Shown here piece after piece: positions 12,234 through 42,687 of a stretch of 44,488 bases of DNA (positions are counted from its first letter, which is position 1; each line of letters starts with the position of its first letter). The position numbers and the translations under genes were made by a program. Under the pieces are notes generated by a model that was given only the letters and a program-made list of their open reading frames with translations, did no database searches and was not told the DNA's origin. Source of the DNA: Spirogloea muscicola (Eukaryota > Streptophyta > Zygnematophyceae > Spirogloeales > Spirogloeaceae); the NCBI GenBank assembly GCA_009602725.1, contig WELB01000144.1:93500-137987 (forward strand), in the 5' to 3' direction.

Positions 12234-12412
12234 CTGCGGGCGCAGGCGCAGGAGCAGGCGCGGCGTACGGGTCAGGCGCGGCGCCGGCTGCGGGGCGGCG
12301 GCGCCGCCGGCGGCCGCCGTTTACGCAGCGCCCCCGGGTCCGGAGCGCCGCCGTCAAGTCAGGGGCCGAGCCTGCAGCGGCTTCTGGCAATCATCCCGCC
12401 GCCTCCGCCGCC
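12234..12412. promoter_or_regulatory. Shared RPS10/UAH head-to-head region
   Basis: Only about 180 bases separate the first recognisable RPS10 exon from the UAH start codon. The stretch is very GC rich (GGCGGCGGCGCCGCCGGC). It must contain the missing RPS10 first exon and both promoters unless that exon overlaps UAH. The intron acceptor before RPS10 exon 2 is pyrimidine poor. Function is inferred from position. Confidence 0.5.
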
Positions 12413-17986: not shown

Positions 17987-20880
17987 TCAAGGGCGCTTTG
18001 CTTTGGAGGCCTTGGTCTGCTTCTTGCGGGCAGGCGGCGGCGGCCGTGGCTGGAGGCGAGCCTGCGCCACGAGTGGTGGTGGGGGGGCCCTGCGCTCGGG
18101 CGGAGGCGGGCGAGGAGGCGGCTGGGGAGGCGGCGGAGGCCGCGGCGGCGGCGGCNGCCTCGGTGGCGGGGGCGATCTCGGCGGCGGCGGCGGCGGCGGC
18201 GGCGGCTTCGTGGCGGCGGGCTGAGCCAGAGTCGACTGCTTCTGAGAGGCGCAGGCGCCCACTGTCGCGTCCCACAGCTGCTGTATCATGAACCTGCGTT
18301 CCACAGGGCGGGTGTTCGAGTCAGAATGGCAGAGAAAGGATCTCAACCATGTCATCATTCACCCCAGCACAGGAGAGGCTAAGACCCTCTCAGCAGCTGG
18401 AACGGTGAACATGCGGCCTGCACTCCGTCACAGAGGTAGTCGGAAAGCTGTCCTGCATGCTGGCGGAAGATACTGGCATGACCTCAGCTTGAGCGGCCAG
18501 CTCCTTAACGGGCTGCAGTCCTGGGCGACAGCTACTCGTGTGCTGCTCAAGTTCCTCACCTGTTGCCATTGATCCCTATAAGATTGTACTCGTAGGCTTG
18601 ACTGCCGAAGCCAACGCTTGTCACTTGACCGTATTGGCCCCTCTCACAGAGGTCGGCCAACTCCTCTCCTTGACTGTCGGTCCAAGCCGTATTGTACAAG
18701 TTGGGGTCTGTTGTATCAAACTCAAATGCCATCAGCTGCCACAATTGACGATGTGTGAAACCATTGCGCTGCCTTGACTGGTGAGACTCTTGTAAGCAGA
18801 GCACTTTCCGCAGCATCTGTAGAAGTAGATGTAGCTACAGCCGAGCGAATGTCCATCAACCTTCTGCCCAAACCTTCTGAGCCAGTATCAATGCTCCTGG
18901 TCTAGCATTAACATGCTTATGCGATGCGTGCGTCCTCACCTGTGGCGATTTCTGCCAGCTCGTGAGCCAGGACGTCAATCAGGCCGTCAACCCCAATATT
19001 GTTGCTGGGCGAAGTCTGGTAGCCGTCCACCACGCTTTGGATGCACCACTGAGGGCACTGGACGCTGGAGTCACCCACGAATGCATATTTGATCTGCATC
19101 AGGTGAAAGCTGGCCCGGTTTGTCATTCCTTGTTGCCAGCATCTGCTCCAGTATGCCCGTGAAGCAGTGAAGCTCACAGTGACATGCATAATGCATTGAG
19201 GACCAGACGCCACTCTGCATCTTGCAGTCTGAGCCCTGCAGCACGTGCCAGTAGCCCTGTGGTTCTGCTGTGGTTTTGAGGGTGTACCATAGGTGCTCCA
19301 GCTACCCAAGCGGGGTATGGATCGGAGGTATGCCAGCCGCAGTATCCAGCGCCACCCCCATTGCAGAAGCCAGATACAGGGTCCAGCGTTTTTGAGTTCA
19401 ATGTCACCCTGGGATCCGTGAGCACGATATACGCTCCATCTTCGTCAGCTGTGGCAAAGGATCAGGCGGAGGTCACGAGGATGATGATGCTCAAGCTTCA
19501 AACGAATCATGTGTAGCAGGCCCGCATCTTTGAGACAGGGCTTGCATTTCACATGGGAAGCAATGGTAGAGAATAAAGGGTCAGGCAGGGTACCTGGCAG
19601 ACTGCCACTACGTATTTGGTTGAAGACTATTGATCGTATAGCGTTATTGTCATCGTCCAAGCTGACAATGCCACATTCACCAAAATCAGTACTCCTCGCA
19701 CGACCTTCCCAATCAAGTCCTGCAACAGCGCTTCCTCAGAACCATCACAATTAGTAGTCTTCGAAATGTTAGTGCAACTGATTGCTCACCTGAGCCCCAG
19801 CGATCCAGAGTCAAAGACCTCCTTGACCACCGTGACCTGGTTGGTTATGTGATTTCCGGCTACATCGGTGTAGTAGGTCACAATATTCCACCATTTCTGC
19901 AGAGCGGCAGCTAGAACGTATGTAAGTAACATATGGAGCATGCCAGTTTTGTCCAGCCTAAGATGGTGGTGGCTGGAGGCGATAGCCGTGGCCTTCATGC
20001 TCGACCGCGGCAACCAATTTGACATGCAACTGGAGGAGCCGGGCTGCACCTGTACGGTAGCGCCGTCCTGTTTCGCTGTATTGGACACGGAGTGGAAGAA
20101 ATTGAGAACGATGGCCCTGGCAGACACTGACCAGGAGCCATACCATATGATGTACACCTTGAGCACGTTGCTCATGATGGGTCCTCCATTGTAGCTGCAA
20201 CCAAACACCATCACCCATATTTGTCATGCAGCTGGTCGCCAAGCTCCAACACTGCACCGAGGAGGCCGGTCCCCCGGTCCTGAGCACACTCCACCCCCTT
20301 TTGACGGTATAGTGCGGGACTAGTGCTTAACGCTGTCCCCAACACGACCAACTGGCATGGCTGTGTCTTCATCTTGGAGTACGTGCTACTCTTGTAACCT
20401 CCATTGATAGATAGCACACTCAAGGGGTCAAGCTCTGCCAAGCCTCACTTGTTCTGGCCAGCAAAGGCTCTGAGAGAAAGCAGTGGAGTGAAAGGAGGGG
20501 CTGGCTCACTTGATGCCGTAAGGACCACCGCCGACAAGGCCGGCTGCACCCCTGGGCTTGGATGGGGCTTCTCTCTCCAACTGGCTCAGCAGGGCCGCCA
20601 TTGGCGGCTTCGCTTTGACGTGGTAGGCGGCTCCATCACGCCGCCAGCGGCGAGTGGTCGAGTTGGACTCCTGTGCGTCCACTGAGTACTTTGGAAGGCT
20701 GCGGTGGCCGGTGTGTCCCTCACTGCCCTCGTTCTCCCCACCATCGTTTCCTCCTCTCCCTCTTGCAGGTCCTCCAGCATGTGTGGGCTTGTAGTGGCGG
20801 CTCGCTTCTGTCCCAGTGAGAAGGCTTCCAAGGAGCAGCGTTGCGACCAGAACTGCCGTGACGGCCAATTGCGCCGCCAT
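17987..20880 (-). CDS. EXORDIUM/PHI-1-like protein with proline-rich tail
   Basis: Minus exons: 20880-20510, 20194-20050, 19896-19790, 19661-19594, 19448-19306, 19093-18940, 18707-18560 and 18293-17987; phases all agree, giving 480 residues. A signal peptide (MAAQLAVTAVLVATLLLGSL) leads into a spacer. The EXORDIUM domain follows: INYNGGPIM, VYIIWYGSW, KWWNIVTYYTD, VYLVLT-like AYIVLTD, SGFCNGGGAGYCGWH, KYAFVGDSSVQCPQWC, IGVDGLIDVLAHELAEIATD, GEELADLCERG, YEYNLIGINGNRF and QQLWDA. The last exon encodes about 75 residues of PPPP blocks and a basic end (PARKKQTKASKAKRP). Plant EXORDIUM proteins are secreted and promote cell expansion. The tail resembles hydroxyproline-rich glycoproteins, so an extracellular-matrix protein is inferred. 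One undetermined base lies in the tail at 18156. Confidence 0.87.
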
Positions 20881-21370
20881 TGCGCCCCACTCTAGTGCAA
20901 GCAGGGGAAAGGCATCTGGCGGTGCGGACACACAAGCCCGGCCGCCTGCTGCACGAGCAGCTGCTGCGCTACCTCAGAAGGCCGGCCGAATGCGGACCCG
21001 GCCGCGAGCCGGCGAGCTCGTCGGCTGCAGAGCCAGCGCCGTGAGCAGTCATCGATGGCATCCAATGGCTGGGCCGGGGTGTCCCCCGCAGCGGTGGTCA
21101 GCGAGCGAAGGGCTTGGAGGCTGAGGCAGGCGGTGACGGCCACGTCGTGGCGAGGGCCGCAAGGGCCTCGTCTTCGAGGAGCGGCAGCCCGGGCGGAGCT
21201 CCGGTGGGGCGGCGGCGGCGGCGCAGTGAGCGTCCGCGGAGCGCGGCGAAGGTCAGGGCCAGTGAGGCCGGGGGCAAGCGAGGTGCGCAGCAGGAAGGCC
21301 TGGGAGGTGGGCCTTTGATGTGAGGAGACTGGAGGGGATAATGGAGGAGGACGAGGGGGGGGGGGGGGGG
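20881..21370. promoter_or_regulatory. GC-rich 5' region of the EXORDIUM-like gene
   Basis: This very GC-rich segment lies upstream of the minus-strand signal-peptide exon and ends in a run of 16 G before an assembly gap. Open frames here are compositional. It likely holds the promoter and 5' UTR; a divergent gene starting here cannot be excluded because of the gap. Confidence 0.4.
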
Positions 21371-21924
21371 NNNNNNNNNNNNNNNNNNNNNNNNNNNNNN
21401 NNNNNNNNNNNNNNNNNNNNNNNNNNNNNNNNNNNNNNNNNNNNNNNNNNNNNNNNNNNNNNNNNNNNNNNNNNNNNNNNNNNNNNNNNNNNNNNNNNNN
21501 NNNNNNNNNNNNNNNNNNNNNNNNNNNNNNNNNNNNNNNNNNNNNNNNNNNNNNNNNNNNNNNNNNNNNNNNNNNNNNNNNNNNNNNNNNNNNNNNNNNN
21601 NNNNNNNNNNNNNNNNNNNNNNNNNNNNNNNNNNNNNNNNNNNNNNNNNNNNNNNNNNNNNNNNNNNNNNNNNNNNNNNNNNNNNNNNNNNNNNNNNNNN
21701 NNNNNNNNNNNNNNNNNNNNNNNNNNNNNNNNNNNNNNNNNNNNNNNNNNNNNNNNNNNNNNNNNNNNNNNNNNNNNNNNNNNNNNNNNNNNNNNNNNNN
21801 NNNNNNNNNNNNNNNNNNNNNNNNNNNNNNNNNNNNNNNNNNNNNNNNNNNNNNNNNNNNNNNNNNNNNNNNNNNNNNNNNNNNNNNNNNNNNNNNNNNN
21901 NNNNNNNNNNNNNNNNNNNNNNNN
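21371..21924. other. Assembly gap (554 N)
   Basis: Undetermined bases flanked by a G16 homopolymer on the left and a 123-base A homopolymer on the right. Both edges suggest sequencing failure in low-complexity DNA. Confidence 0.99.
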
Positions 21925-22229
<305 letters not shown>

Positions 22230-22480
22230 TTGGCCCTTTGTTCATTCATTTTTGGGCTGGCTTTTCTCCGCCCCTATCCTCAATGGGCGAGCCCTTCTCT
22301 CGTGGGAGCTCCTCCGCTCCTCCCCCTCGGCTCATCTGACTTCCTAATGCTGGCACGGGGGTACTAAGAGCGCCCTGCCTGCCTTAGCCTGTTGCTCCGC
22401 TAACACAGTCATGAACACCCTCTGTATGCACCTGGCTGGCGTTCACAGCCGCAAACTTCATATCAGCAGCCGCTTTCCGC
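22230..22480 (+). mobile_element. Retrotransposon tail fragment (copy H)
   Basis: TTTGGGCTGGCTTTTC and CAATGGGCGAGCCC match the dispersed tail family. Then CTCATCTGACTTCCTAATGC, GGGGGTACTAAG and TATCAGCAGCCGC are nearly collinear with 42320-42450 of copy G. Only the extreme 3' end is present; no coding sequence survives. Confidence 0.65.
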
Positions 22481-24520
22481 CCTGACGCCCGAACCCGCCA
22501 GGCAGATCTCCCTCTGCACCGGCCGCGGGGGCGTCGCTTGCCGCAACTACCACCGCCGCGCTCTCATCGTCAGATCGCACTGTGCAGCGCAGGCCGGAGC
22601 TGCATCGTCCTCTCCTTTGGTTGCCCCGCCATACAGGACAGCAAAGGGTGCATCCCGGCGTCGGTGCCGCAGGCTCGCTCGCTTAGGTGTACAGGATGCA
22701 TCTATCAGTCCGCCTCAGCGCTCCCAAGCATTTGCAGTGCATCTGCGCCCATTGGCTGCTGTTTTAGGCTTCGAGTGGTGGTTAAAAGTGCGGCAGCAAG
22801 CTATCTGAATTGAGGCCGGCCTTTCACAGCCATCGCCCCCTTTAGAGAGCTTCTTCTCGATTGAACTGCTGGCCACCTTCGCTCTGCCTTCTCTTCCATC
22901 CATCATCTTCACGTTCTTTTGTCCTGTTTAGCTGAGTTTGATATGATGCTGCTCATCGGAGGATCTTTTATCAGTATGTGCATCGAACATCGTCATGTCC
23001 CTCGTTCGAACTCAAGGGATACTTCTCGACCGAGCATTGGACCACTCTCGACTATCCTTCATGAGTGAAGTCTACTGTCCAAGAGAAGTCCTCCAGCTGA
23101 TCAACTTCTACATCAGCAGCAAATTGACAGGTAGACATTTGCTAGTGTTTTATGATGACTAATCTAAGATTGTGCTGTATGATATGTTCCTCAGCGAGCA
23201 CTCGAGATGGGATGAGCAGTTGAGTGAACCAGAGACAAGTGAGACTCTTGCCAGAATGGAGTTACTTGCTAATCAAGACTCAATAAGTTGCTTCCAATTG
23301 CCTTGCACTAGGAGTGGCTGGCCTCGGCAGTCGAAGGGCAAGCCCCGTCCAAGCATTGGGTTCTTGCCAAAGTGAGAACAGCACTTACTTGCTTACCGAC
23401 TTGGCAACCTGCTTCCGACCAACTCACATTGCAAGAGTGGCAGCTGACCTTGGCCTTGGCAGTTGTGGGTGGCGCCTAAGTCCAAGCAGCGATTGAGCCG
23501 CAATTGCCTGCGAGTCTTCTCCTTTGTTGCTTAAACCACCTCACTAAGCAGAGCACCAACGCATGCATCTGCCGTTTGCTTCCAAGAGACTGCTTAAAGT
23601 GCAGTTGCCGAGAAGGGGAAAAATGCCTCCCGTGTTTGCTTGCAATCAACAGGCCTGGCTGCCACCACCCCCAAACGTGCAAGATAGGGCAACTTGCGAT
23701 GCAGGCACAACACGCAAGCAAGCCGGCAAGAAGGCTGATTAAGCATGATCATGGCGGTCTGCCGACAACGTTGCATCTGAAGCCCAAGGATCAGTCACGA
23801 AAGCAGCGGAGCACGGAGTAGAAGCCCGCCATCTGCAGCGTGCTTCTTGCCATGCTTCTTGCCAGACTGGCTTTGGACGAACACAACGGTGCGAGTGAAA
23901 GCTGGAGGGGGTAAAGGGTCCATCGTGGTAGTGTCCTATCCGGCAATAACAGGGGTAGCATCTCGAGGCTTCAAGGACTTCGAAACAACGAAAGGCCGAG
24001 AAACTTGCGCCCTGCTTCCGCAAGGGCCAAGCTGTGCATCGCGTACATCTTGGAGCTGCTGCTGCTACTGCAGGTCACCACTGGAAACGGCCTCAAAGCC
24101 TTCCAGAGGAGAAGCGAGAAGCGCAGGTGCCGCAGGACGAGGCCAGCACAATCTCAAGGGCTGAGGGGGGAAAGGTCCCGACAGCAGCGAGGAGCTTGCA
24201 AGTGCACCCAAGCGCGCGCAGCGGGCGGCGGCACAGCGGAGGTGGCACTTGCCGGCAGAGCCGCATACGCCGGGCCGGCACTAGGTGGGAATTGTTAGCG
24301 TGCGAGTGGAGCGCAGGCAGCGGCGGAGGCCCTGGCTGAGCGAAGGGGTCGGCAGGCCCGGCACGGCCAGCGTCCGAGGCAGGAGAATGTGGCGATAGAG
24401 AGAGCTCACGGCGAGGAAAGCGGTGGGCGTGGAACGTCGAGTAACTTCGGCGCCAGGAGCGTGAGCGCACGAGGGCATGGTGGAGGCGGCGTGGGCACGA
24501 CTGCCGCAGGTGCTGGAGAT
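22481..24520. other. Intergenic, no recognised gene
   Basis: Two kilobases with short frames on both strands, none resembling a known family or showing a coherent exon-phase series. 24100-24350 is GC rich and could be a decayed gene or promoter. No RNA gene or clear repeat is seen. Confidence 0.45.
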
Positions 24521-25225
24521 AGAGATAGCTCTTCCTATGTAAGGCAATGGCTTTGAGAGGCCAGCCCAAAGTAATGAACAAGGTCTGAAAATGAATGATG
24601 AAGGAAGGCCGGAAGGTTATCAACGTGGGCGCCAGGGAGGGCGTGGGAGAGACGTGCATTGAGTGATGGGTGGCCTGAGTTCGAACATAAAACACCAGCT
24701 CTTCCAATATAAGGCAGGGGCTGTAGAAAGTCAGCCCAGAAAGAATGGACAAGGTCCAAAGGGCCGGGAGGCGCCGAAAGCACAGAGCTTTGCAAGACTG
24801 CAGCAACGGGAGCTTAGAGTCCAGCTCCTCTTCTCTATGGGCGAGCACTTTCTTCTTATTAACCCCGAGTCAGCAGACGCAGATCGGAGTAAACTTTGGG
24901 AAAGAGAATGCGGCTGCTGACATTGAAAGAGCGGCTGTAAAAGCCAGCCAGGTGCTCTTGGGATTCCCCAACAAGACCCATAAGCACGAAAAGCGCTTTC
25001 TCAAAGCTTACCCTGTAGGATAATCACTCATTGACCTCTAGTTAGCAGCCGCAACTCAGAAAGACTAGCCACGCCGGAAACAGCGCTTCCAAAAAGCAGT
25101 CCCACTTGATGAAAGCTAGAGGCAGCAGCTAGAGCATGGCCAGCACGCAGATGCAAGGCAGTACGGACCTCTGGACCTTGTCCGTTCTTTCTGGGCTGGC
25201 CATTCACACCTCCCGCTCCCTTTGG
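24520..25225. repeat. Cluster of GCCAGCCC-type dispersed repeats
   Basis: Several copies of the family core occur: GGCTTTGAGAGGCCAGCCC at about 24549, GTAGAAAGTCAGCCCAGAAA at about 24723, TGTAAAAGCCAGCCAGG at about 24936 and GACCTTGTCCGTTCTTTCTG at about 25172. The arrangement is a patchwork of truncated tails in both orientations with no intact gene. Confidence 0.6.
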
Positions 25226-25690
25226 AAGAAGTGGCTCTCCCAATGGGGCAAGGCCTGTGAGAAGCCAGCCCGAAAAGAATTGACAAGGTTCGAAGGGGCC
25301 AAAGTACGAGCTAAGCAGCGACTGCAGGGCCTGAAGAGGCTATGGCAGAACGGGGGAGGATGGACCACTTAGTAGTTACAAGTGAGGAGCCTCACATCCG
25401 ACAGACTAGCTGCCGGTAAAGTATCCCCTTGACGAAAGCCGGAGGCCGCAGCGAGAGCACGGCCAGCACGCAGATGCAAGGCGTGGGCCATGGATCGCTG
25501 GAGGGAGACGGACAAGCGCATACGATACACCTGAGCCCACGAGCCAGCGGCGTTGAAGTCAGCCGGCTCACCGCGCCTGCGGGACACAGCGCGCCGTGCA
25601 AGCCTGGCCAACAGGTCGAGCCAGTGGGATCCGAGAGCCCCATGCACGTCCACAGCCAGGGGGACGAACTCGTCGGCAACCGGGTGGTCG
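25225..25690 (-). mobile_element. Retrotransposon C-terminus plus tail, minus strand (copy D)
   Basis: Minus-strand frame 25653-25369 reads MDVHGALGSHWLDLLARLAR, then SWAQVYRMRLSVSLQRSM, LRAGRALAAASGFRQGD and LLTCNY*. It is followed by a noncoding tail to about 25225 containing the complement of AGCCAGCCCGAAAAGAATTG. It is the same segment as copy E on the opposite strand 500 bp away. It is 5'-truncated, so only the endonuclease-side C-terminus remains. Confidence 0.75.
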
Positions 25691-25734
25691 GCGTGTTTGG
25701 AAGCCCTCAGAGAATGAAAGGCGCTTCCAGAAGA

Positions 25735-25890
25735 GGGCGGTGGCTGTGAGAGGCCAGCCCAGACAAGAATGAAAACAGTTCCAAGGGGCCAGAGAAGGGC
25801 TCACTTTCCTGAAGAGAGAAGGCGCGCGGAGCGCATGAAATGAAAGGGAGGCCAATACAAGCCAATACATTGTTCCTGAAGGCAGTAGAG
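25735..25890. repeat. Repeat junction between copies D and E
   Basis: The segment begins with GGCGGTGGCTGTGAGAGGCC and then holds GAAGGCGCGCGGAGCGCATG. The same 20-base string recurs at about 38380-38400, with similar flanking sequence. Confidence 0.6.
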
Positions 25891-25901
25891 ATCGCTAACC
25901 G

Positions 25902-26870
25902 ATGTCCCACTACCGGACGGCAAATGTGCTCTCGGCGTCCTCACCAGGGGCGGCTGCTTGGCTGTCGGCTCTGCCGATCCACGACGCGCTCCGGATGCCG
26001 GACGCCGCATTCCGAACGGCGGTGCACCGCCTCCTCGGCCTCCACCCACCATGCCTAGGTGGAGTACAACAGTGCGAGTGCGGCGAGCGCAGCCCGGACG
26101 CGGCGTCACTGGCAGCTCACATGCTCCGATGCGCACGGGGAGGGGAGCGGACCGGCACACACGACCTGCTCCGGAACGCGATGTTTGGCATATTTGTCGA
26201 AGCCGGTTACACTGTGGCGCTGGAGCACTCCAGCATCATGCCTGACTGCTGGGGCGGACGGCCGCCTCCACACTCGGCGCGCCGATCTCGTCGCTAGCGC
26301 GCTCGGCGGGGGGCCTCGGCTCATTGCCGACGTCGTCACAACGGACTCCTTGGATTCCAGGAGCGCAACACGCTCGGCGGAGGAGGCGGGCTACGCCGTC
26401 CGCCAAGCGGCCGCCGCAAAGGAGCGCAAGTACTCAGATCACCCGGTAGGCGACGAGTTTATCCCACTCGCCGTCGACGTACACGGCGCCTTTGGCGCCA
26501 AATGGCTGGACCTCCTTCACCGCCTTGCGCGGCGAGCAGCGGCCCGCCGCGACGGGCAGCAAGGCGAGCAGCCCGGCTTCCATGTCGCCGGGTCCCTCGC
26601 CCAAGTTTACCGGATGCGCCTGGCCGTCTCTTTGCAGCGGTCCCTAGCTTTTGCGGTCCACTTGCGCGCAGGCCGCGCTCTGGCGGCGGCCTCCGGCTTC
26701 CGTCAGGGCGACGTCTTTCCGCCTGCTAGCTACTCAGATTTGCATCTACTGACGAGAGGTTACTGAGAGTTCGCTTACTGCTGTCTCAGTCCTTAGCACT
26801 CCGACTCCTTCAGACCTTGTCCATTCTTTTGGGCTGGCCTCTCCCAGCCACCAGTTAATCTGGCCGCGCT
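25902..26870 (+). pseudogene. Non-LTR retrotransposon C-terminus (best copy, E), one frameshift
   Basis: Frame 25902-26297 carries a zinc knuckle (CECG, then H and C in AAHMLRC) followed by GTHDLLRNAMFGIFVEAGY and PDCWGGR. A shift of frame near 26255 continues as RRADLVAS, IADVVTTDSLDS, VRQAAAAKERKYSDH, FIPLAVDVHGAFGAKWLDLL, SLAQVYRMRLAVSLQRSL, LRAGRALAAASGF and LLTRGY* at 26766. A CCHC finger followed by a PD-(D/E)XK-like RPD/D...K region is the layout of the restriction-like endonuclease end of site-specific LINEs. The tail then has CCTTGTCCATTCTTTTGGGC. No reverse transcriptase remains, so it is a 5'-truncated dead copy. Family assignment is from pattern memory. Confidence 0.75.
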
Positions 26871-27230
26871 TGCTTCAAATGTGGGGGTGGGCAGGGAGCT
26901 GGAAGGTCGACCGGCGCTGGGCGGGGAGGGCGACGGACCGCCTCCCCCGCCTCCCCCCGTTTGGGCTGGCCTCTCCCAGCCACCAGTTAATCTGGCCGCG
27001 CTTGCTTTTTACCTTAGCCTCCCCAGGAGGAAGAAGTGGTTCTCCCAATGGGGGCAAAAAGAGTGCTGTGAAAAGCCAGCCCGAAAAGAATCCCGCCGGG
27101 GGGGCCCTTACCATCCATAAACCCTAAACTATAAGTAGGAAGCTCTTCCCATTTAAGGTTGTGACTGGGCTACGCTTTATGTGGCCACCAGTTTGCACAG
27201 TGCTTTGACTTGACTTGGCCTTCACACTGT
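26871..27230. repeat. Further GGGCTGGC tail copies
   Basis: TTTGGGCTGGCCTCTCCCAG and TTAATCTGGCCGCGCTTGC at 26960-27005 repeat the same words at 26830-26875. An inverted GAAAAGCCAGCCCGAAAAG follows at about 27069. An isolated AAACCCTAAAC lies at 27117-27128. Confidence 0.65.
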
Positions 27231-27690
27231 AGCTGATTGGGCTAAGCGAGTCTCAATAGTCAACGGTTAGCGGACGATGTAATGGTCGATTCCATAAATA
27301 CCGGGAATCGAACGGGTGAAGAAGTGGCTCTCCCAAAGGGGGCAAGGGCTGTGAGAAGCCAGCCCGAAAAGAATTGACAAGGTTCGAAGGGGCCAAACTA
27401 CGAGCTAAGCAGCAGGGTGGTGAAACCACCCTTTGGGGTACCCTGTCTGCGGGCCCTCTTGCCCGTTAACAATACTGTAGCGAATCGGAGTTGACCGATA
27501 GTCAGTAGTCAGCAGTTAGCGGACGGTGTAACGGGTCGATGACCATGTATACTGGGAACCTGACGGGTGTCACACCCTGCGGGAGAAGCGGCTCTCCCAA
27601 TGGGGGCAAGGGCTGTGAAAAGCCAGCCCGAAAAGACGAAGGTTCGAAGGAGCAAAATGACGGAGGGGCCTAAAAGAAGGAAGGGCTCGC
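27231..27690. repeat. Two tandem units of about 250-265 bp with hairpin
   Basis: TTAGCGGACGATGTAATGG at 27267 recurs as TTAGCGGACGGTGTAACGGG at 27516. Each is followed by GGCTCTCCCAA, GGGGGCAAGGGCTGTGA, AGCCAGCCCGAAAAGA and AGGTTCGAAGG. Between them AGGGTGGT (27414-27421) pairs with ACCACCCT (27425-27432) around a GAA loop. Confidence 0.7.
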
Positions 27691-28550
27691 CCATTGAGGA
27701 TAGGGGCTGGAAAGCCAGCCCAAAAGAAGGAACTAAGTACGAGAAGGGGGCCAGGGGAAGCGCTAAGAAATACGAGCACAACAAGAAACAAAGCAGCTAC
27801 ATATTACTCAGTAACCCCCGCTAAGCAGCCTAAAGCGCTATGGCAAAACGGGTGGAGAATGGACCACTCAGTAGCTACGAGTGAGGAGCTGAGGGGTGCC
27901 CTTTCTGCCTTGGACCTCTTGCCCATTACGCTGGTGGAAACGCCGGGTAAGTTTCCCGATACCATCTCGCTGACTATCGGTTAGCCCGATCCGCTACATT
28001 ACATGCGCCCGCTCGCCTTGTCGTGAGCTCATCCAAAGTGAGGCGATGACTGTGAGGAAAGAAAGTGGCTATAGTGGAAGGGACGCGGGCTGTGAACAGC
28101 GAGCCCGGAAAACAATTGGATAATTTTGTGAGAAGCCAGCCCAAAACAAAAGAATGAAGGAATGAAGCAAGGGGAAGTCAGCGTGTGATGCGAGAAGCTC
28201 TTAGAAAGGATGGCTGCGAGAAGCAAGAATGTCTTTGAGAGGCCAGCCAAAATGGGACATAATCTGGGGCCAGAAAGCGCAGGGCACGCAGCTCCATGCA
28301 GCTAAGAGAGAAAAGGTCCAAGAGGGGGCTAAGCAAGTGACAAACGCGAATGGGTGCCCGATCACTCGTAATCAAGCACCAGATTTTATATTAGCAGCCG
28401 GACGAGAAAGAAGCTCTTCCAGAACGGAAGATGGTCCTTCAGAAGGCGGCGATGGCCATGAAAGGCCAGCTCAAAGGAAGTGGACAAGGTCCAAAGAGAT
28501 TAGATAGCGCATATCACTCAGCAAAGGAAGTGGGTATCACGGATGGCTGC
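27691..28550. repeat. Mosaic of dispersed repeat fragments
   Basis: 27691-27830 is the inverted relative of 961-1130. Cores recur at 28080 (CTGTGAACAGCGAGCCC), 28130 (GAGAAGCCAGCCCAAAAC), 28235 (GAGAGGCCAGCCAAAATG) and 28455 (GAAAGGCCAGCTCAAAGG). No gene is seen. Confidence 0.6.
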
Positions 28551-29570
28551 TCAACGACACCTGGTCAACAGGCGCAGGTCAGAAGTAGCAGCCTGACTCG
28601 TATAGAAGTTTCCATACGAAACAAGTAGTCGCATTCAATACGCCTGAGCTTAGTGGCGGCAGGTAAGGCACAGATCCTCTGAGGTGCAGAGCGGCCAAGT
28701 ACAGTAGCAGGCACATGCACGAACGATGGTGTCTCCTCTTTGCGGGCTGGCCTTCCACCGCCCTCGCCTTTTCTGATCAGAGAAGTTGCTGCTCAATTGT
28801 TGGGCGCCTGGTGTGAACCGTCCATTAACCGCGCGTCTGCACACAAAGACCGCGGGCCAAATGCCTGATGGCATGTTGCAAGGCCCCCCTGCCACCAGCC
28901 AGAGCTCGCCCAGCTTGTCAATTCTTTTCAGGCCTGGCTGTTCACAGCCCTTGCTTCTTCTCATTTGGGAGAGCCACTTTCTTTCTGGTGCAGAGCATGG
29001 GCCTGAGCTCGCTGCAGACAGAATGACAGGCGACCGTGCAAGGTGGGGGAGCCTTGTTGGCGGAGCCCATCTCGGCCGGAAGCACATCCTCACTACGTGC
29101 AAGCCCTAGGCTGGGCAGTACCCTTGAGCAAGTCGTGGAACGAGCACCGGTGCAGCCAAAGGGTGGTTGGTGGCGATAACAGCGGGGACAGGCAAATTAG
29201 TAAGAGGGGAAGTGTGACTGTTACGAGCGACAATGGTCTCAGGGTGGTCAAAGTAGATCGAGCTGCAGGCCGGCCACGCCAAGGTGGCGCTGCGCCGGTC
29301 CCAGTTCCGGGTGTGGGGCCCCCCCGCCGACTCGCACTGTGCGCCCACGCTGCGCTGGCCCGCCAGCGCCAGGCCGCAGCCCAGCCATCGGAGCCCGCAG
29401 CCTAGCGCGCGCGATCGCTGAGCTCGAGCCTGGCCTCCCCTCGAGCGCCCACTTCCTCGCCAGCCGGCCGCTCGCCTGCACAAGCAGGCCGCGCTCGCCA
29501 CGCTACCACATTCTGCGATCGCCCCGCTGCCCGGACTCGCAGGCCCACGTCCGCCGTGGCAGCCCCAGCC
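28551..29570. other. Intergenic with one repeat copy; promoter of second EXORDIUM-like gene
   Basis: 28915-28990 is a + oriented repeat tail (GTCAATTCTTTTCAGGCCTG, CACAGCCCTTGCTTC, TTTGGGAGAGCCACTTTC). The rest shows no coding pattern. From 29270 the sequence turns GC rich, as at other gene starts in this window, and probably holds the promoter. Confidence 0.5.
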
Positions 29571-32500
29571 ATGGGACCGCCTCAGCACGGTAGCTCTGCT
29601 GCCCTGGGAGATGGGGCGCACTGCAGCCGCACGTCGAGGCCGGGTGGTCGTGCACGAAGCGCCGCGCTCGTGCTGACCGCAGTCTTCTGCACTTGGAGCT
29701 TCCGGGTGAGAAGTCAGTTGCGGTGCGGGCCTCGGCATCCTGCTGACGTCTATGTTTACGTAGCCTGCCCTCCGGGCCCCTGGCTACTTGCTCGAGTCAA
29801 GTCCGGCTCCCAGCTTCAGCCGACGGTCGAATGCCGCGTCCTGACACTCAAAGGCTTTGGGTTGTGACCATGCTGGTGTCAGATGGAGCAATCGGCAGCC
29901 GCACAGGTATGGTCCGATGCAGGCATCACAAATGGAAAGGCTGGAGCACGCAGCACCCTTGAAACTCCTGCACCTGCATCCTCGCCGCCAACGTACAGGG
30001 GGATCATGTAGGTCCACAGATTGTCAGGCTTTCATGGCCTCGCTTTGCTCTGTTCTGGCAGCACTGAAACACGACGCTTAGGACCCACATCGCTGCTCCC
30101 TGACCAACGCAATGTTGAAGTGCAAAGCTTCGACTTGCTCCCTAGCCAAAGCACACATCAATCTCACGATTTGCAGCTTCCAAGGCTTGGCTTCACTTGG
30201 GCCCTCCGAGTACCTCTGTTTTACATGTAGGGTGCTCGAGTCAGCCACACTCAGTAACTTTGGGCAATTGGTGTGGTGCGTTGCACTGATGTGCAGCTAC
30301 CAGGGAGGGCCCATCCTTAGCGGGCCTGTACTGGACGTGTATCTTGTGTGGTACGGAACTTGGCCATCTGAGGCTGACAAATCCGTGATTCGCAACTTGA
30401 TCAGATCACTTGACTATAACACCAACTCCAACCAGCAGGGCTCCACGTTACAGGTCAGTCGAGGACACTGGGCATTGTACTGCACAAGCTTCTTGCCATG
30501 TGGCACTCGATAGAATATTATGATGGGCTCTCCAACGTTCCACGGAATTGTCAGAGGCAAAATTGAAGCGCTGCCATAGCTCACTGCAGCAAGATAGTCA
30601 ATTGCCCAGGTCATTATTGGTAGTGACCTCTGCTTATGAATGAGGTCCATCTGTTTTCAGAAATGGTGGAATGTGGCACACATCTACACCGACAGTACAG
30701 GTGCAATGGTCAGCAACAACATCTCTCTGACTGGAGAGGGTGTAGATTCATACTCCTATGGCCGATACTTGTATGTTAACCTCGACAACCAAACCCTGCC
30801 CGATATCAAAGACATCTTGAATAACCAAGTGGACAATGGCTACCTGCCAGCTGATGTGAACGGGGTCTACTTCTTGATCACAAGTGCCGATGTCTTTGTC
30901 TTGGATGCTACTGGTAAGTAGCACCCCCCACTTATCAGCTCAATTGGTGAGACCTTCTCCCGTGCTATAGGCCTCGCTGATGGTGCAGCTTATCTGTTAG
31001 ACTGTACCTCCATTTACTAGGCTGTCTGCAGTCCTGCATTCAGTATAGCAGAGTGCTGTAGCCGGAGCCCGAGAGCTTCAGTCAGCCTGAAATTAAAATC
31101 ATATGAGAGAGCTGAATCGGAGAGCAAACCTTGCTTGTTTGTGAAACAGACAGCAATGGGGGCCTATGTGGTCCAGGCACCAGAGGCTACTGCTCACAGC
31201 ACACTATGGAGTCTTACCTCGCTACAGATTTTATCACGACGTAAGCAATCTCGTGCCGAGGGAGCACTTGTGAAAGTTCACAGTTGTCCTTCGAGTTGAT
31301 TCCCTGAGATGACCTCCTTTGGCTAATTGACAAAAAAGAATCCGCATGGGGATTGCATGCTCGGTGCGAGGATGGTTAGCGAAGCTGGTACGGTTGTGTA
31401 GACCCGTTCTGATGACCACACACAAAATCTGTCTTGAGTAGTCAGCCGCCTCACCTACCTTTCTTGGCCACACACTGCAGCACCTCCCTCAAGTACGCAG
31501 TCCTGGGGGACCCCAGCCAATGCCCCGAGCAGTGTATCCCTTTCCAGCAAGCAAATCCAAGCGCCCAAGCGCCAAATGGCAATTGGGCCATTGATGGCTT
31601 GGCCAACAACGTTGCAGCTGCACTGGTCAACAGTGCCACCAACCCATCCGGTATTAGTGGAGGGCCTCCTGGTTGGGTCAGCAATCTGACTGCAACTATA
31701 CAGGAAGAAGTGGCCAGCAAGTGTTCGCACTCGTTTGGGACCCTTGCAGTCAATGGCAGCGTCGAGTACAACTTGATGGGGACCGGCGGCCAGAGGTGAG
31801 CGCTTCTGAACGAGCTCATGACTGACCCCCTGCTCATACTCTTGACGTCCTCTAGACAGCGTCCTGATAGAGGCACCAAGTGTGCATGCGCTTGTGCAGG
31901 TTTGCGGTGCAGCAGATCTGGGATCCTCTTGCAGGCTCGTGCTCGCTTGGCGACCCAAATCCTGCTCCTCCCCCTCCGCCTTCTCCCCCTCCACCACCTC
32001 CCCACCGACCTCCTCCGCCCCCCCCACCTCCACTTGCCAGTCCCCCTCCTCCTCCTCCTCCCCCTCCCCCTTCCCNNNNNNNNNNNNNNNNNNNNNNNNN
32101 NNNNNNNNNNNNNNNNNNNNNNNNNNNNNNNNNNNNNNNNNNNNNNNNNNNNNNNNNNNNNNNNNNNNNNNNNNNNNNNNNNNNNNNNNNNNNNNNNNNN
32201 NNNNNNNNNNNNNNNNNNNNNNNNNNNNNNNNNNNNNNNNNNNNNNNNNNNNNNNNNNNNNNNNNNNNNNNNNNNNNNNNGGCCACCTCCTCCTCCTCCC
32301 CCTCCTCATACCCCACCTCCCCCTTCTCTTCACCCGCCGCTATCTCCTCCCCCTCTCTCTCCCCCTCCACAACCTCTATCTACTCCCGCCCCCCATATTG
32401 TGGCGCCTCCATCTCCTCCACCCACCTCGCCACCTCCTAGTCTTCCGCCGCCGCTCCTTTCTCCTCCATCCACGCAGCCTCTCATCACTCCTCCACCGTC

Positions 32501-33440
32501 CCCTCCCCTTCCTCCTCCTCCCTTGCCAGCTCCTTCCCCTCCTCCTCCCTCTGCGCAGCCAAGTCCTCCCCTTCCTTCTCCCCCAGCTCTGCCCCTCACG
32601 CCACCTCCTCCTCCTTCCGGTTCCCTAATTCCATCTCCAGATGCTCCCCCATCTCCTCCGCCTCCCCAAGACCCCATACCAACTCCTTTCCTCTCCCCGC
32701 CACCTTCCCCACCTCCTTCCCCTTCTTTGGCACCTCTGCCTCTACCTCCACCTCCAACTGATTTCGTTCCAGTCCCACCAATAAGTCCTCCCTCTGCAGC
32801 CTCGCCTCCACCCACGGCGTATTCCCCTCCAACATTCACACATAACTCCTCGCCCAGCATGTCTCCGCCTCCTCATTCTCCGACTGATGTATCAGCCCCT
32901 GTTGGTGCCAAGCCACCTCTTCAGCACCCTCCGACACCCTCGCCTAAGCCACGTCCAGGCGGGGGCCCCGTTCCCAACCCAGTGAAGGCAAAGGCCCCTC
33001 CATCTTTACCAAGCTATCAACCTGTTTCTCCATATCCTCCCACTGGCATTGCTCGTAAGCCCCCTGCTACTCTAAGCCCTCCACGGCCGCCCAAGGGCAG
33101 GAAGTACAAAGTGAACACGACTCTGGTCGCAGCTGCACCACCCTGCATCTATCCACCTCCATCTGGTCCTACTGGTCACCACCCTCGTAACCAGGGCCAC
33201 CATGAGTTCAGCTCATCTTCGATGCTCAAGTTCCTGTATGACATCCTATCTTTTGCAAAAGGCTCAGCTCGTCAGCCTCCCCATCCTCCATCCCCTCCTC
33301 CACCCCTTTGTAAACCTGCCATTGGCCACCATCCACACGGAGCTGGCCACCACAAGAAGCCCCCACCTGCTGCTGCGGTGGGGCCGCCTCTGCCTCCCAA
33401 GAGTATGCATTCTACCAAGGGTCACTCAACCTTCGGCTAG
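29571..33440 (+). CDS. EXORDIUM/PHI-1-like protein with very long proline-rich tail
   Basis: Phase-consistent exons: 30062-30226, 30297-30453, 30661-30913, 31150-31240, 31481-31795 and from 31900 through a gap to the stop at 33440. The domain shows YQGGPILSG, VYLVWYGTW, KWWNVAHIYTD, GVYFLITSADVFV, GGLCGPGTRGYCSQH, KYAVLGDPSQCPEQC, WAIDGLANNVAAALVNSAT, EEVASKC, YNLMGTGGQRF and QQIWDP. The HELAE motif of the family is absent. The tail exceeds 400 residues of PPPP, PPSPPP and SPPP blocks, like hydroxyproline-rich glycoproteins and pherophorins. It ends with two GHHP-type motifs and a Lys-rich stretch. A possible first exon 29571-29705 holds a hydrophobic AALVLTAVFCTW but does not join in phase with 30062, so the N-terminus is unresolved. 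Reading frame differs on the two sides of the gap. It is a paralogue of the gene at 17987-20880. Confidence 0.82.
32076..32280. other. Assembly gap (205 N) in proline-rich exon
   Basis: Undetermined bases inside CCT/CCC-rich coding sequence. The proline frame before the gap and after it are not the same modulo three with 205 bases between, so the gap size is probably wrong or an intron is hidden. Confidence 0.97.
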
Positions 33441-34240
33441 AATAGCCAAGCGAGCTCCTAGGTCTGGTGGCAAAGAAAGCCTGCTCTGATGCTTCGCCGT
33501 TATTGCGTGACACTATGACCGGCAAGTTGCCATCTGTTGTACATTCCTGTCTTGGCCTTGGCTGGCAGCAGATTTGATTAAGAGGGTCGATGTTGTGGTT
33601 CTGGTTGCCTAAGATGCCCATGCGGCACAGCCTTCTCACAAGCAAGTGACTCAATTGTGCAGCACCACCAACTCTAGTAATATAAGTTGCGACAGTACAA
33701 GCACGGTCATGAAATGCTAGAGGCGTCACTCGCTTGAGCTAATGCTGTGCCCTTGGAGAGTGTTCGTCACATAGGAGCTTGATTCTACCCACACACATGT
33801 CAGGGAGATTCATGTGCTTCGTGAACTCTGTCCAGCAGCACAGGAGCAGGCAAGACTTGCCTGCCCATTGTGCAGTCAGCAGGTGCTGGTAGATGCAGCG
33901 GCATGAAGAAGCAAGCGAATTGTGACAGAAGTGACAAGTATGTAAAAGACAAGGACATCTTAACGAGAATGGTTTAGGACGATGGTGACATGCATCCTTG
34001 CCAACATAACTGCCCACTGCACAGCAATCGGTGAATTTGATGTCAAAAGCTATGTACCTCACCCATTGAGCATATCGGGGTCTAATATTGACAGGATTCA
34101 GACTCCATCTGAATGATACCGATTCCACGGTCAGAGACCTCACAATGTGATCTGGCCAAAAATGTGATGGGACCAGGATACGAAGAACATACTGATCTGC
34201 ACCTTCTGCTGGCAATTGTAGCTGTCGCTGTACTAGGAGA
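33441..34240. other. Intergenic between convergent genes
   Basis: Eight hundred bases between the ends of the second EXORDIUM-like gene and the RNase T2 gene. Only short frames without family resemblance occur; no repeat or RNA gene is recognised. Confidence 0.55.
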
Positions 34241-35903
34241 CTAAAATGAGGGGAACTGCACAATCTTGGGACAGGCCCTGACTTTTGGAAAGACGGGGCA
34301 GTCAATTAATGTTCGAGCATCTGTATCCACGCAGATGTAAATCTGCGTCACAGTCACAGAAGTGACCAATTTAAGAGAGGTCTGACCACATCGGATTGTT
34401 AGCAAAGCCCTTGTCAAAAATCTGTTCAGATCCAATGTCTCAACATAACAAAAATGGGTGTTTGGGAAGCAGCACACCTGGTACAGCTGGGGCCTCCTCG
34501 CTTCGTCCTTGTTGCACTCAACAGCCGGGGTGTACCCAGTGTAGCCTTCAATTGCATCTGTGATGTCACGAAGATTGTAGCTCGCTCTGTTTGCCAAAAG
34601 GCGACAATGACATGAATATGCAAAAAGTTGGTAGTGAGCCTCTTGCAGAGAAATACCTCTATTTCATCAATGTCGAAGTGTGGCAACTCCTCCAAGTTGC
34701 TTGCAAAACCGTCAATAAGTCCTGTACAGAGGTCCTGTACACTGAGGTACGGCTTTCACACTGGAGAGCAGTACACACCCGGGCGTGATGCCGGCATCAG
34801 CAAGGGCCTTGGTGACAAGTGTGTCCTTCCACAGCTCCAGAGCAGCCTGCACATGTAATATTTGACTGATAATGCAGATCTGTAAGGTAGACAGTTGTCA
34901 AGGTAAGAGATAGTTAAGTAACTGTAGCTGAGTTGCAAAGTGCTTGATTGTAGTGCAAAGAGCATGAGTCTCCTGAGCCGTAGGCCAGTCACAGATGGGA
35001 GTGACCTCCAACATAAGCACAGCTGCTCCAAATATCGGCTAACCTCGAAGTAGGCATGCTCGTCCGACATCGTATCAGCGCAGGTCCCATGCTTGCTCCA
35101 CTCGTGCGACCAGAAGCTTTCGCCCTTGCTGGCAGGACAATTCAGCGTGTCCCAGAAGTCCTCCAAGTCGCTTTCCAGGTCACGGATCTGGACAGTACAG
35201 GAGGCAGCTGCTAGAGCACACATCAGGGCTTCATTGTCGTCGTCCTTCGCAAAGTTCGGCAGTCTCAAGTCCACTGTTATTAGATGTCACCAAGCCACAC
35301 GGGCACAATTGAGCTCGATTCCTGAAGAGCCAGAGGTGAACAGACCAATGAGCAGCGAGGATCATACAGGTGAGTATGACAAAAGCGATGCCTTGAGTTG
35401 ACAGGTGGCAAACCTCGGAGATCCTGAAGGGCCGACTGGGGTCGCAGTCCTGGGGATAGCTGCCATCCGCATAATTGGGCCACAGTCCGTGGATGGAGAA
35501 CTGGGCATCGGGCTTGCCCTTGTCGGGATTGTAGCAGCACTTCCTATCGCAGGTAGTCCGCACCGGCGCATGTGCAACTCAGCTGGAGCCCGAATGGCAG
35601 GCTTGCCAGCTGCGCTGACAGATTGCGCACCCCAGAATGGCTACCGACATTTGGTGCACGACACGACGAGAGCCGAGCACCATTTGGCAGGGAGGGTGCC
35701 GCTCAATGCACACCTTCGTGGCACAGGGGGAGCAAGGCGGACTGCCGAGCAGGGGGGCTGCTGCGTGCCCACCTGCCGGAATTGCAGTACGAGCCGGGCC
35801 ACTGCTGCACGAAGAAGAAGAAGTCGAACCCACCAGCATTGACGGCGTTGGCCGCCAGCGTCGTCGCCACCGCCTGCGCCAGCGCCGCGCCGCCCGCCGC
35901 CAT
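34241..35903 (-). CDS. RNase T2 family ribonuclease, six exons
   Basis: Minus exons: 35903-35773, 35543-35414, 35187-35044, 34846-34779, 34586-34478 and 34342-34241; all phases agree, giving 227 residues. Landmarks: FDFFFFVQQWPGSYC at the mature start, RKCCYNPDKGKPDAQF, the first catalytic motif FSIHGLWPNY, SDLEDFWDTLNCP, the second catalytic motif FWSHEWSKHGTC, HAYFE, YNLRDITDAIEGYTGYTP, ECNKDEARRPQLYQ and YICVDTD. The catalytic histidines (IHGLWP; HEW and KHGT) and paired cysteines are present. RNase T2 enzymes cut RNA after forming a 2',3'-cyclic phosphate and usually act in the secretory path, vacuole or outside, often in phosphate recycling. The N-terminal 25 residues (MAAGGAALAQAVATTLAA) make only a weak signal peptide, so localisation is uncertain. 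ATG at 35903 has a Kozak-like GCCGCC context. Confidence 0.95.
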
Positions 35904-36130
35904 GGTGCCTGGAGGTGGGGGGAAAGCTACGGCTGCGCGGGCAAGGGGGTGGAGGGAGCTGGGCCACCTGGGCCAGCGCGTGTAGGCGGCGCGACGAGAT
36001 GCGAGCTGCGCACGAGCAAGCGGGATTACCACGCGGCGCGCGCGGAGAGGCGGAGAGGAGCCGGCGTGGAGCTGCAGCACCTAGCCCGCCCCGGTTGGCT
36101 CGGAGCATCTGCCAGAAGGAATGACTGAGG
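35904..36130. promoter_or_regulatory. GC-rich upstream region of RNase T2
   Basis: GC-rich leader immediately upstream of the RNase T2 start, ending near 36125, where repeat-type sequence begins. Promoter function is inferred from position; no partner gene is visible on the other side. Confidence 0.4.
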
Positions 36131-37860
36131 GAAGTTAAGTGCATGTGTGGATGATCCGATTGTCGCAAGGTGCAAGACAGAAGCACTGCCATGACTGATG
36201 TTCGTCGATGGGCTCAGGAGCCGCCGGTGCCTGGGCAGCTCTGCGTGCATGTTGCTTGTGTCGCAGAATGGAAGAAGAAGCTCGCCCAAATTTACGAAGG
36301 TGGCCAGGAATCTATATTTAAGAAAGGCCAGCCCAAAACGAATGGACAAAATAACCACGAGCATCTGGCATGGGGGTGGCTGCATGCGAGTCACATGATT
36401 GCTAGCTTGAGATGCTCAGCACTCGACTGTCTCGTGCGGCTGCTGACCAAGATAGATTAGATAGTGAGCACCCAGTGGCCACTTAAGTCGTTGTGTGCGT
36501 AGCGCTTTTCTGACCCCTTTAAATTTCGTTCATTCTTATTTTGGGCTGGCCAATCACAGCCATCGCCCTCTACTCAAAGAGACGCTTCCAGTATTGGTTG
36601 ATGCCTGTAAGTAGGTCGTTGGGCTCCCCCCTTGACCTTAGTCCATTCTTCTTGCGCTGGCCAGCGCCTTCATTCAGCAAGCTTCTCCAACCTTTCACTC
36701 CGTTAGCAATTTACTTGATTGATCAGGCAGGCCATCCACACCTGCCACCTGAAAACATCACAATCTTCCCATGCAGCTGACCTTTGGCTCGTACCTGAAC
36801 GATGCGGAGCTGCACTTCCTCAGTGAATCTCTTGGACACTTTCCGTGGGGACGTAGATATCACTGATTTCTGATGCGCAATGCGGAGCTGCACTCTCTGT
36901 GACTTCTGGAAAGTCGCTCAATAAGCTCTAGTCAACAGATGCAGAACAAACCAGTGAACAAGGTCCAGTCGGGGAATTGGGAATGCGTCCACGAAGGAGG
37001 GTCGTTCAGTAAGCTGTAGTTAGTAGCCGCAAGTCAGGGTCACCAGCAGCCAGAAAGAAAGATCTTTCAAAGTTGGGCAATAGAAGACATGAATGGACAA
37101 GGCTTGGAGTGGCTGGACGAAGGAAGAAGCTGCTCCGTCAAAAAGAGCGAAGGCTGAGAAGAACTAGCTTCTCAGAAATAGGGCTATAGCTGTGAGAGGC
37201 CAGCCCAGAGGAACGCACAAGGTCAGAAGGGCCAGCTGACAAACAGTAACCAGGTCTTGGATATGGAAAATTGACACGCTGGACAACAAGCAGTCTACTA
37301 AGGATGGCCGCTCAGTGACCCCTGTTTGGCAGTTGCGAGTCAGCTGGAGGCAGCAGCAAGTGACCGATTATTTCTGAATTGGCTTTTTCACAGCTCTGAG
37401 GCTTCGTCTATCTCCTGGAACAGCTTGTCGATGCCAGCTGACGTAGTCGGGCGAGTTGCTTAGGGCAATCTAGTGTCCCACAAGCAATCATTGCTTGCTA
37501 CAGTATGCGGCTATCGTTGAGTCTGCCTGCAGCGCTCCCAGGCACAGCATGCTGGGCGAGCACTAGGCCAGGCTAATGGCTTGCGTGGTGGTGCTCTGGC
37601 TCCTCAGCTTAGCTTGTCATTTATGTGTGTGCTCACTCGTGGGTATTTAGAGGACCCCTCTTGCCACCGTATTGAGAGCAAGCGCGCCTTATTGCCCGTT
37701 ACCAGGACTTCGTACGGTTCAAAGTGGCCTCCCCATCTGAGGTACGTCTTTAGATGTGCTTGCCTTTGTACTTGGTCATTTGGCCTTTGTTTGTTGCAGA
37801 TACACGATAATTTATCTGAACCGCGCGTCTTTCTTCTTGTTGACGCCTTTTGGCCCTTTG
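36131..37860. repeat. Repeat island 2, first part
   Basis: Cores of the dispersed family occur at about 36325 (AAAGGCCAGCCCAAAACG), 36530 (TTCATTCTTATTTTGGGCTG), 36645 (GTCCATTCTTCTTGCGCTGG) and 37193 (GTGAGAGGCCAGCCCAGAGG). Between them are short frames only. Nothing between 37250 and 37860 is recognised as a gene. Confidence 0.55.
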
Positions 37861-38369: not shown

Positions 38370-38784
38370 AAGAGAGAGAGAAGGCGCGCGGAGCGCATGA
38401 AATTGAAAGAGTGGCCAATTGTAGCCTCACAAATGTCCTGGCAGAAGGGCTTGGTTTTGCCATCTGGTATTCGGGGACTGATTAGCGACCTTCGTGCTTC
38501 TCGACACAAAAAGACCAAAAGAAGAAGAAGTGGCACTCCCGATGGGGGCAAGGGCTGTGCAAAGCCAGCCCGAAAAGAATTGACAAAGGTTCGAAGGGGC
38601 CAAATGACGGAGGGGCCTACAGCGCTAAGCAGCTACGAAGGGGGCCTGAAAAGAGGGAAGCTCAGTACCCACGAGTGAGCAACACAGCACACAGAAAGAG
38701 AGCACAGAAGCAAGCGCGGCCAGATTAACTGGTGGCTGGGAGAGGCCAGCCCAAAAGAACGGACAAGGTCTGAAGGAGTCGGAG
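38370..38784. repeat. Repeat island 2, last part
   Basis: Contains GAAGGCGCGCGGAGCGCATG (shared with about 25820), the AGCCAGCCCGAAAAGAATTG tail with AATGACGGAGGGGCCTA (shared with 1330-1385) and GGGAAGCTCAGTACCCACGA (shared with the inverted-repeat arm at 380-400). It ends with CCAGCCCAAAAGAACGGACA, immediately before the telomere-type run. Confidence 0.7.
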
Positions 38785-38817
38785 TTAGGGTTTAGGGTTT
38801 AGGGTTTAGGTTTTAGT
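38785..38817 (+). repeat. Interstitial telomeric repeats (TTTAGGG)n
   Basis: One partial TTAGGG, two full TTTAGGG units, then degenerate TTTAGG and TTTTAG. The G-rich strand is the + strand, so a telomere at this point would have capped the sequence to the left. TTTAGGG is the plant and Chlorella-type unit. Confidence 0.9.
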
Positions 38818-42470: not shown

Positions 42471-42687
42471 GGTTGCACGCCGTGAGCGGCAGCAACTCCT
42501 CCTTGGTTACCTCGATGACTGCGCGCGACCCCAGTCTCTGTACACACACACCCAACACCACTTCATGCTAGCATCAGCTACAGGTGATACTACACAAAGT
42601 GCCGCCCATTGCTATGTCCAAGTTGACAGAGCCAGCACTTGCACAGTGCAGGCTCCACAACAGCGGCAACGTGGTCACTCGAGCTAG
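42471..42687. other. Short intergenic spacer
   Basis: No coding or repeat signal is seen between the retrotransposon fragment and the stop codon of the minus-strand transporter gene. Confidence 0.5.

Follow-up and report, generated by a model that had tools for sequence, protein, structure and literature searches.

Two genes of the EXORDIUM/PHI-1 family, lying head-to-head in a stretch of 44,488 nucleotides of an algal genome (C144:93500-137987, the whole of which is called here the window), probably encode two wall proteins mounted on a proline-rich stalk, one of them enzyme-like with an HExxE motif and the other a non-catalytic partner that has lost the site. We give this reading a probability of roughly 0.6. 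An earlier note on the window had proposed that in both genes an EXORDIUM domain is followed by a proline-rich tail, and this held with the corrections given below. The profile check that it suggested gave matches to the Pfam family Phi_1 above the gathering score and near full length in both proteins, with 143 bits over profile positions 2-274 of 276 for the gene on the minus strand (the minus gene) and 130.5 bits over positions 3-274 of 276 for the gene on the plus strand (the plus gene), against a cut-off of 25. Phi_1 was the sole domain that Pfam found in either protein. The features of the pair are as follows (N stands for an ambiguous base).

17987..20880, minus strand: minus gene, EXORDIUM (Phi_1) domain and short proline-rich tail; spliced model of 8 exons, 486 amino acids; Pfam Phi_1 E 1.5e-41
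Minus-gene exons, minus strand: 20880-20510, 20194-20050, 19896-19790, 19661-19594, 19448-19288, 19093-18940, 18707-18560, 18293-17987
20800..20880, minus strand: N-terminal hydrophobic stretch of the minus gene, signal-peptide-like by eye, sequence MAAQLAVTAVLVATLLLGSLLTGTEAS
18248..20511, minus strand: Phi_1 domain of the minus gene, residues 124-400 (span includes introns); Pfam match
18941..18964, minus strand: intact HExxE motif (HELAEIAT) of the minus gene, a candidate metal site; motif table
17990..18205, minus strand: proline-rich tail of the minus gene, 72 amino acids, with a basic C-terminus, KKQTKASKAKRP; from the translation, one N at 18156 in a CCG run
21371..21924, no strand: assembly gap of 554 N with homopolymer edges, separating the two genes
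29571..33440, plus strand: plus gene, EXORDIUM (Phi_1) domain and long proline-rich tail; spliced model of 7 exons; Pfam Phi_1 E 1e-37
Plus-gene exons, plus strand: 29571-29705, 29883-30007, 30297-30453, 30661-30913, 31150-31240, 31481-31795, 31900-33440
30298..31945, plus strand: Phi_1 domain of the plus gene, residues 88-374 (span includes introns); Pfam match
31614..31631, plus strand: AAALVN in place of the lost HExxE site of the plus gene; motif table
31967..33437, plus strand: proline-rich tail of the plus gene, in one open frame with the domain in the C17 copy; last 176 amino acids less repetitive
32076..32280, no strand: assembly gap of 205 N inside the plus-gene tail; the flanking frames do not join as written

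The least certain splice is the minus-gene donor at 19288 (near IKY/TSLKY), which was picked by homology.

The HExxE site and its loss

A Phi_1 profile search of the genome (153 Mb in 471 contigs) gave 46 exon places that were grouped into 28 loci, and 27 of these could be modelled over the domain. The remaining one (L028, at C18:471000-480000) is a truncated copy of the minus gene, which matches window 19327-20668 at ca. 88% identity and breaks off in the middle of the domain, and it was excluded from all domain alignments and counts. Relatives were also found at 25 bacterial loci belonging to Verrucomicrobia, Acidobacteria, Actinobacteria and others, their best segments being 31-43% identical to the algal locus L014 (first query row). 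The bacterial genes are intronless and no proline-rich tail was seen in the translations examined; three of the loci (L040, L049, which is from Geothrix limicola, and L051) have two adjacent Phi_1 reading frames each.

In all 24 bacterial rows scored a His, then HExxE, and then D, E, D and C are kept jointly, and the same columns (H, H, E, E, D, E, D, C) are invariant in 26 bacterial sequences from 23 of the 25 loci, L054 and L058 having been left out. Another locus, L041, was dropped from the site table and the trees by the DP filter; its sequence has the site and is counted in the invariant set. Among the algal genes HExxE is kept in 12 of 27, including the minus gene, in which His, HExxE, Asp, Glu and Cys stand where the bacterial proteins have them. 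In the other 15, including the plus gene, H, E and E are all changed, and on the trees this distribution requires at least five changes. We take the segment HELAE...ADLC of the minus gene to be present in Arabidopsis EXO as well.

The overall fold of a structure model of a bacterial Phi_1 protein may resemble that of the metzincins (adamalysin/ADAM/ADAMTS/TACE and pappalysin), with the candidate metal motif placed, as in them, on a helix, although the structural match is remote and no significant sequence relation was found. The metzincin motif HExxHxxGxxH/D occurs neither in the minus gene nor in the 24 bacterial rows nor in the 12 site-bearing algal genes, all of which have HExxE instead, and the plus gene has no site at all. 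Searches against PDB sequence profiles gave matches at chance level and the bacterial Phi_1 proteins fitted no NCBIfam model. The domain is probably zincin-like in fold, with an HExxE site that its bacterial relatives have kept, and because of this combination the ancestral protein probably depended on a metal and most likely acted as a hydrolase. A zincin origin of EXORDIUM, with the site lost repeatedly, appears likely.

The loss of the site has not made the plus gene a pseudogene, because its N-terminus and domain remain under purifying selection in the comparison with its copy on C17 (L024), with a ratio of nonsynonymous to synonymous substitution rates (dN/dS) of 0.22. The value for the minus-gene domain against its copy on C15 (L027) was 0.19. 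With the site lost, the domain constrained and the tail far longer than in the minus gene, the plus protein is most likely a non-catalytic partner.

The most serious alternative is that Phi_1 is a lectin- or peptide-binding module whose HExxE residues form a structural metal site, in a family that has no catalysis. The absence of the site from more than half of the algal genes would agree with this, as would the constraint in the one site-less pair tested (the plus gene and its C17 copy), which implies that the domain is useful without the site, the failure of sequence comparisons to link the family with peptidases of solved structure or with a peptidase model of NCBIfam, and the fact that HExxE is not the canonical zincin motif. 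However, the joint retention of all eight residues in every bacterial row scored, the alteration of H, E and E as a set in each of the 15 algal losses and the position of the site on a helix, as in zincins, count against it, and we regard this alternative as unlikely, if by no means negligible.

The proline-rich tails

In the window the long tail is broken by the 205-N gap, but in the C17 copy the last domain exon and the tail form one frame to the stop, through 486 tail residues of a product of 867 amino acids (one codon with N), and with the same C-terminus as in the window. A third copy of the tail (L064, on C15) is open over 351 codons and has its stop seven codons before the end; its domain would fall in an N run of C15 and was not seen there. 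The three copies hold the same frame and the same C-terminal blocks, and in the window copy and in C17 the other two frames carry 5 and 10 stops. Past the gap the plus tail (385 amino acids) contains 39% Pro and 12% Ser, with 11 SPPP and 9 PPPP, and the cross-link motif YxY occurs neither in this part nor in its two copies. The dN/dS of the tail was 0.47, 0.60 and 0.87 in the three copy pairs, and 1.03 for the proline-rich part alone in the pair with C17; by these values the constraint on the proline-rich part is weak or absent, though the frame is kept. The minus-gene copy on C15 carries frame-shifting indels (not divisible by three) in its CCG run, and the same C-terminus is found there in another frame.

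Blocks of 40 amino acids with at least 18 Pro were found 35 times on the gene strand and 5 times on the other strand over 26 EXORDIUM loci, while in the 15 loci without a scored tail or linker the numbers were 4 and 5. We take the tail of the plus gene to be well supported and that of the minus gene to be likely. The possibility that the proline-rich exons belong to other genes or are low-complexity DNA that is not translated, the actual proteins ending shortly after the domain, draws on the gap or N in both window tails, the frame shift in the C15 copy of the minus gene and the weak constraint just described. Against it stand the uninterrupted frame of the C17 copy, the frame and C-terminal blocks maintained by three copies and the strand bias of the blocks, and we consider it improbable.

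The earlier note had described the tails as an extensin- or pherophorin-like module. The first part can be kept in the sense that the tails are of the hydroxyproline-rich glycoprotein (HRGP) type, the plus tail having SPPP repeats, with the reservation about YxY, which extensins have. Pherophorins have DUF3707 (PF12499) domains around a proline-rich rod. A search of the genome for PF12499 gave no match, which does not show that the domain is absent, and with Phi_1 alone recognized by Pfam in the two window proteins a relationship to pherophorins was rejected as unsupported.

The tailed form across the family

The fusion had been presented as a feature of two genes, and it is wider than that: a proline-rich tail or linker is found in 13 of the 27 modelled genes (the window pair, L010-L016, L023, L024, L027 and L029). 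Eleven others end shortly after the domain (L009, L017-L022, L025, L026, L030 and L034). The proline-rich stretch starts within the last exon of the domain in 8 of the 13, and in the other five (L010-L013 and L029) an inferred intron lies between it and the domain; the linker of L011 enters an N gap. In five genes (L010, L012, L013, L014 and L029, on C25, C311 and C203) a CBM14-like Cys domain follows. Pfam CBM_14 has four matches in the genome, all of them 3' of EXORDIUM genes and on the same strand, and a search with one of the CBM14-like domains as query added the fifth, behind L014. All five CBM14-like (peritrophin-A) domains found are therefore located behind an EXORDIUM domain and a proline-rich linker.

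Eleven of the 13 tailed genes fell together (support 86/92) in a tree built from the domains of 27 algal and 24 bacterial sequences, and on a tree made without the site columns the tail had to change twice over the 24 algal rows that were counted. The common ancestry of the window pair, which the earlier note had read from three introns in common (phase 2 before Y.GGP, phase 0 before KWW and phase 2 before RF..QQ.WD), is right and the introns are real. At the exact column and phase all three are found, among the 27 modelled genes, only in the window pair and its copies L027 and L024. The additional introns of the minus gene described after GLR and after SLP were also confirmed, but a third one, inside HELAEIAT|DP, had been missed, so that three introns of the minus gene are missing from the plus gene, which has one (LDAT|D) of its own. 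Near IKY/TSLKY both genes have an intron, with slightly different place and phase.

Some results weaken our own reading. The quick tree without the site columns supports the tailed group at only 51, a grouping of all 13 tailed genes is neither shown nor rejected (p-AU 0.509), and for three of the 27 genes (L031-L033) no tail score could be given. Moreover, in four other genes (L025, L026, L030 and L034) a phase-0 intron lies two columns away from the second shared intron, and a phase-2 intron one column away from the third. With introns of matching phase so close by, the second and third shared introns may predate the pair.

The layout of the pair

The two genes have their 5' ends facing, 8.7 kb apart, and their domains are 36% identical. 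A run of 123 A (window 21925-22047) abuts the 554-N gap and is probably an assembly edge. On C15 the copy of the minus gene is followed by 10.2 kb of N, beyond which the DNA is collinear with window 32349-36558. On C17 the N run measures 10.0 kb; DNA resembling window 11598-12303 precedes it, and the DNA after it is collinear with window 22476-35689. Since each of them shows one gene plus the expected flank beyond the N run, the head-to-head layout would be present in three copies and older than all of them. A recent inverted duplication, or an adjacency created by assembly at the gap with homopolymer edges that separates the genes, was rejected as highly improbable, the former by the 36% domain identity and both by the collinear pieces on the far sides of the N runs, even though the plus-gene domain in C15 and the minus gene in C17 would fall inside those runs and were not seen.

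Genome context and other features of the window

The earlier note had named chlorophytes as the group in which the fusion should be sought, which is probably the wrong comparison. A search for GRAS genes gave 92 exon matches, many of them by eye in sets of three similar ones, and this, together with a genome that looks triplicated, points to a zygnematophyte, for example Spirogloea muscicola; with GRAS genes present, a chlorophyte origin was rejected. A weak match to STELLO glycosyltransferases at window 7843-8595 (plus strand, E 3.4e-6, just below the curated cut-off) would presumably fit a streptophyte. A triplication of the genome is stated for Spirogloea muscicola in the part of PMC11547041 consulted.

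Downstream of the plus gene there is a Ribonuclease T2 exon (34759-35286, minus strand, E 9.5e-14), and stretches of the triose-phosphate-transporter family are located at 42593-43936 (minus strand, best E 7.4e-14). An internal plant-type telomere-like repeat (TTAGGGT, 4.6 copies) lies at 38785-38816. Dispersed repeats at 25224-25428, 26762-26876, 27318-27413 and 38705-38785 have ca. 87-99% identity with sequences at L010, L011, L013, L022 and other EXORDIUM loci. An Rfam scan of the window gave no match.

Comparison with known systems

EXO of Arabidopsis is an extracellular protein that is essential for cell expansion in the leaf (PMC2661892, in part). Land-plant EXORDIUM/PHI-1/EXORDIUM-like (EXL) proteins (PF04674) share with the window genes the full Phi_1 domain and, by eye, a secretion-like N-terminus. 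In them, however, the conserved region is nearly the whole protein of ca. 300 amino acids (same excerpt), a contrast that the earlier note had drawn correctly, whereas here tails of 72 amino acids (minus gene) and 486 amino acids (C17 copy of the plus gene) follow; the plus gene differs further in having lost HExxE. The same excerpt noted one bacterial EXO homologue in 2009. Within what is probably the same algal group, and in the same family, excerpts report 12 EXL homologues in Mesotaenium (PMC10505561) and an EXL protein of a zygnematophyte that is raised under osmotic stress (PMC12820192), and the passages available from these two papers mention neither tails nor CBM14 nor an enzyme-like fold. 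For Marchantia, 18 EXORDIUM-like proteins are given (PMC8792609, in part).

The window proteins are similar to chimeric HRGPs and extensins in having an SPPP/PPPP stalk on a folded, presumably secreted domain, and no EXORDIUM chimera appeared among the HRGP and extensin literature matches listed. Nor was an EXORDIUM protein with a proline-rich tail or CBM14, or a zincin fold for the family, reported among the matches listed from freely readable journal papers; no paper among the matches listed holds EXORDIUM together with zincin, metzincin or HEXXE, and none of the literature matches listed gives a biochemical activity for EXO. That peptidase activity on proline-rich wall proteins exists is illustrated by Svx, a bacterial metallopeptidase that cuts extensins (excerpt of PMC13164431).

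What the pair may do

Both window genes would belong to an EXORDIUM/PHI-1 family that is enlarged in this alga, a streptophyte and probably a zygnematophyte. Each of the two proteins, hydrophobic at the N-terminus by eye, would be secreted and would bear its Phi_1 domain on a proline-rich stalk, presumably hydroxylated and glycosylated, that embeds it in the extracellular matrix; some members of the family have a CBM14-like domain behind a proline-rich linker. The minus protein, with its site intact, may perform a metal-dependent action close to the point where it is anchored in the wall. The plus protein, whose domain is kept by purifying selection after the loss of the site and whose tail is several times longer, would act in binding or as a scaffold.

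We propose only tentatively, at less than even odds, a wider reading in which EXORDIUM, a growth regulator in land plants, derives from bacterial secreted metal-dependent hydrolases with a metzincin-like fold and HExxE, and in the wall of streptophyte algae was mounted on HRGP stalks and chitin-binding modules and repeatedly turned into pseudoenzymes, the window genes being one pair of a site-bearing and a site-less member. A candidate fold and metal site for EXO would make the question of its activity one that can be approached by a point mutation. The tailed and CBM14-bearing algal forms hint at the place that the domain takes within the wall, and the adjacent genes, one with the site and the other without it, form a natural pair for comparing catalytic with non-catalytic roles.

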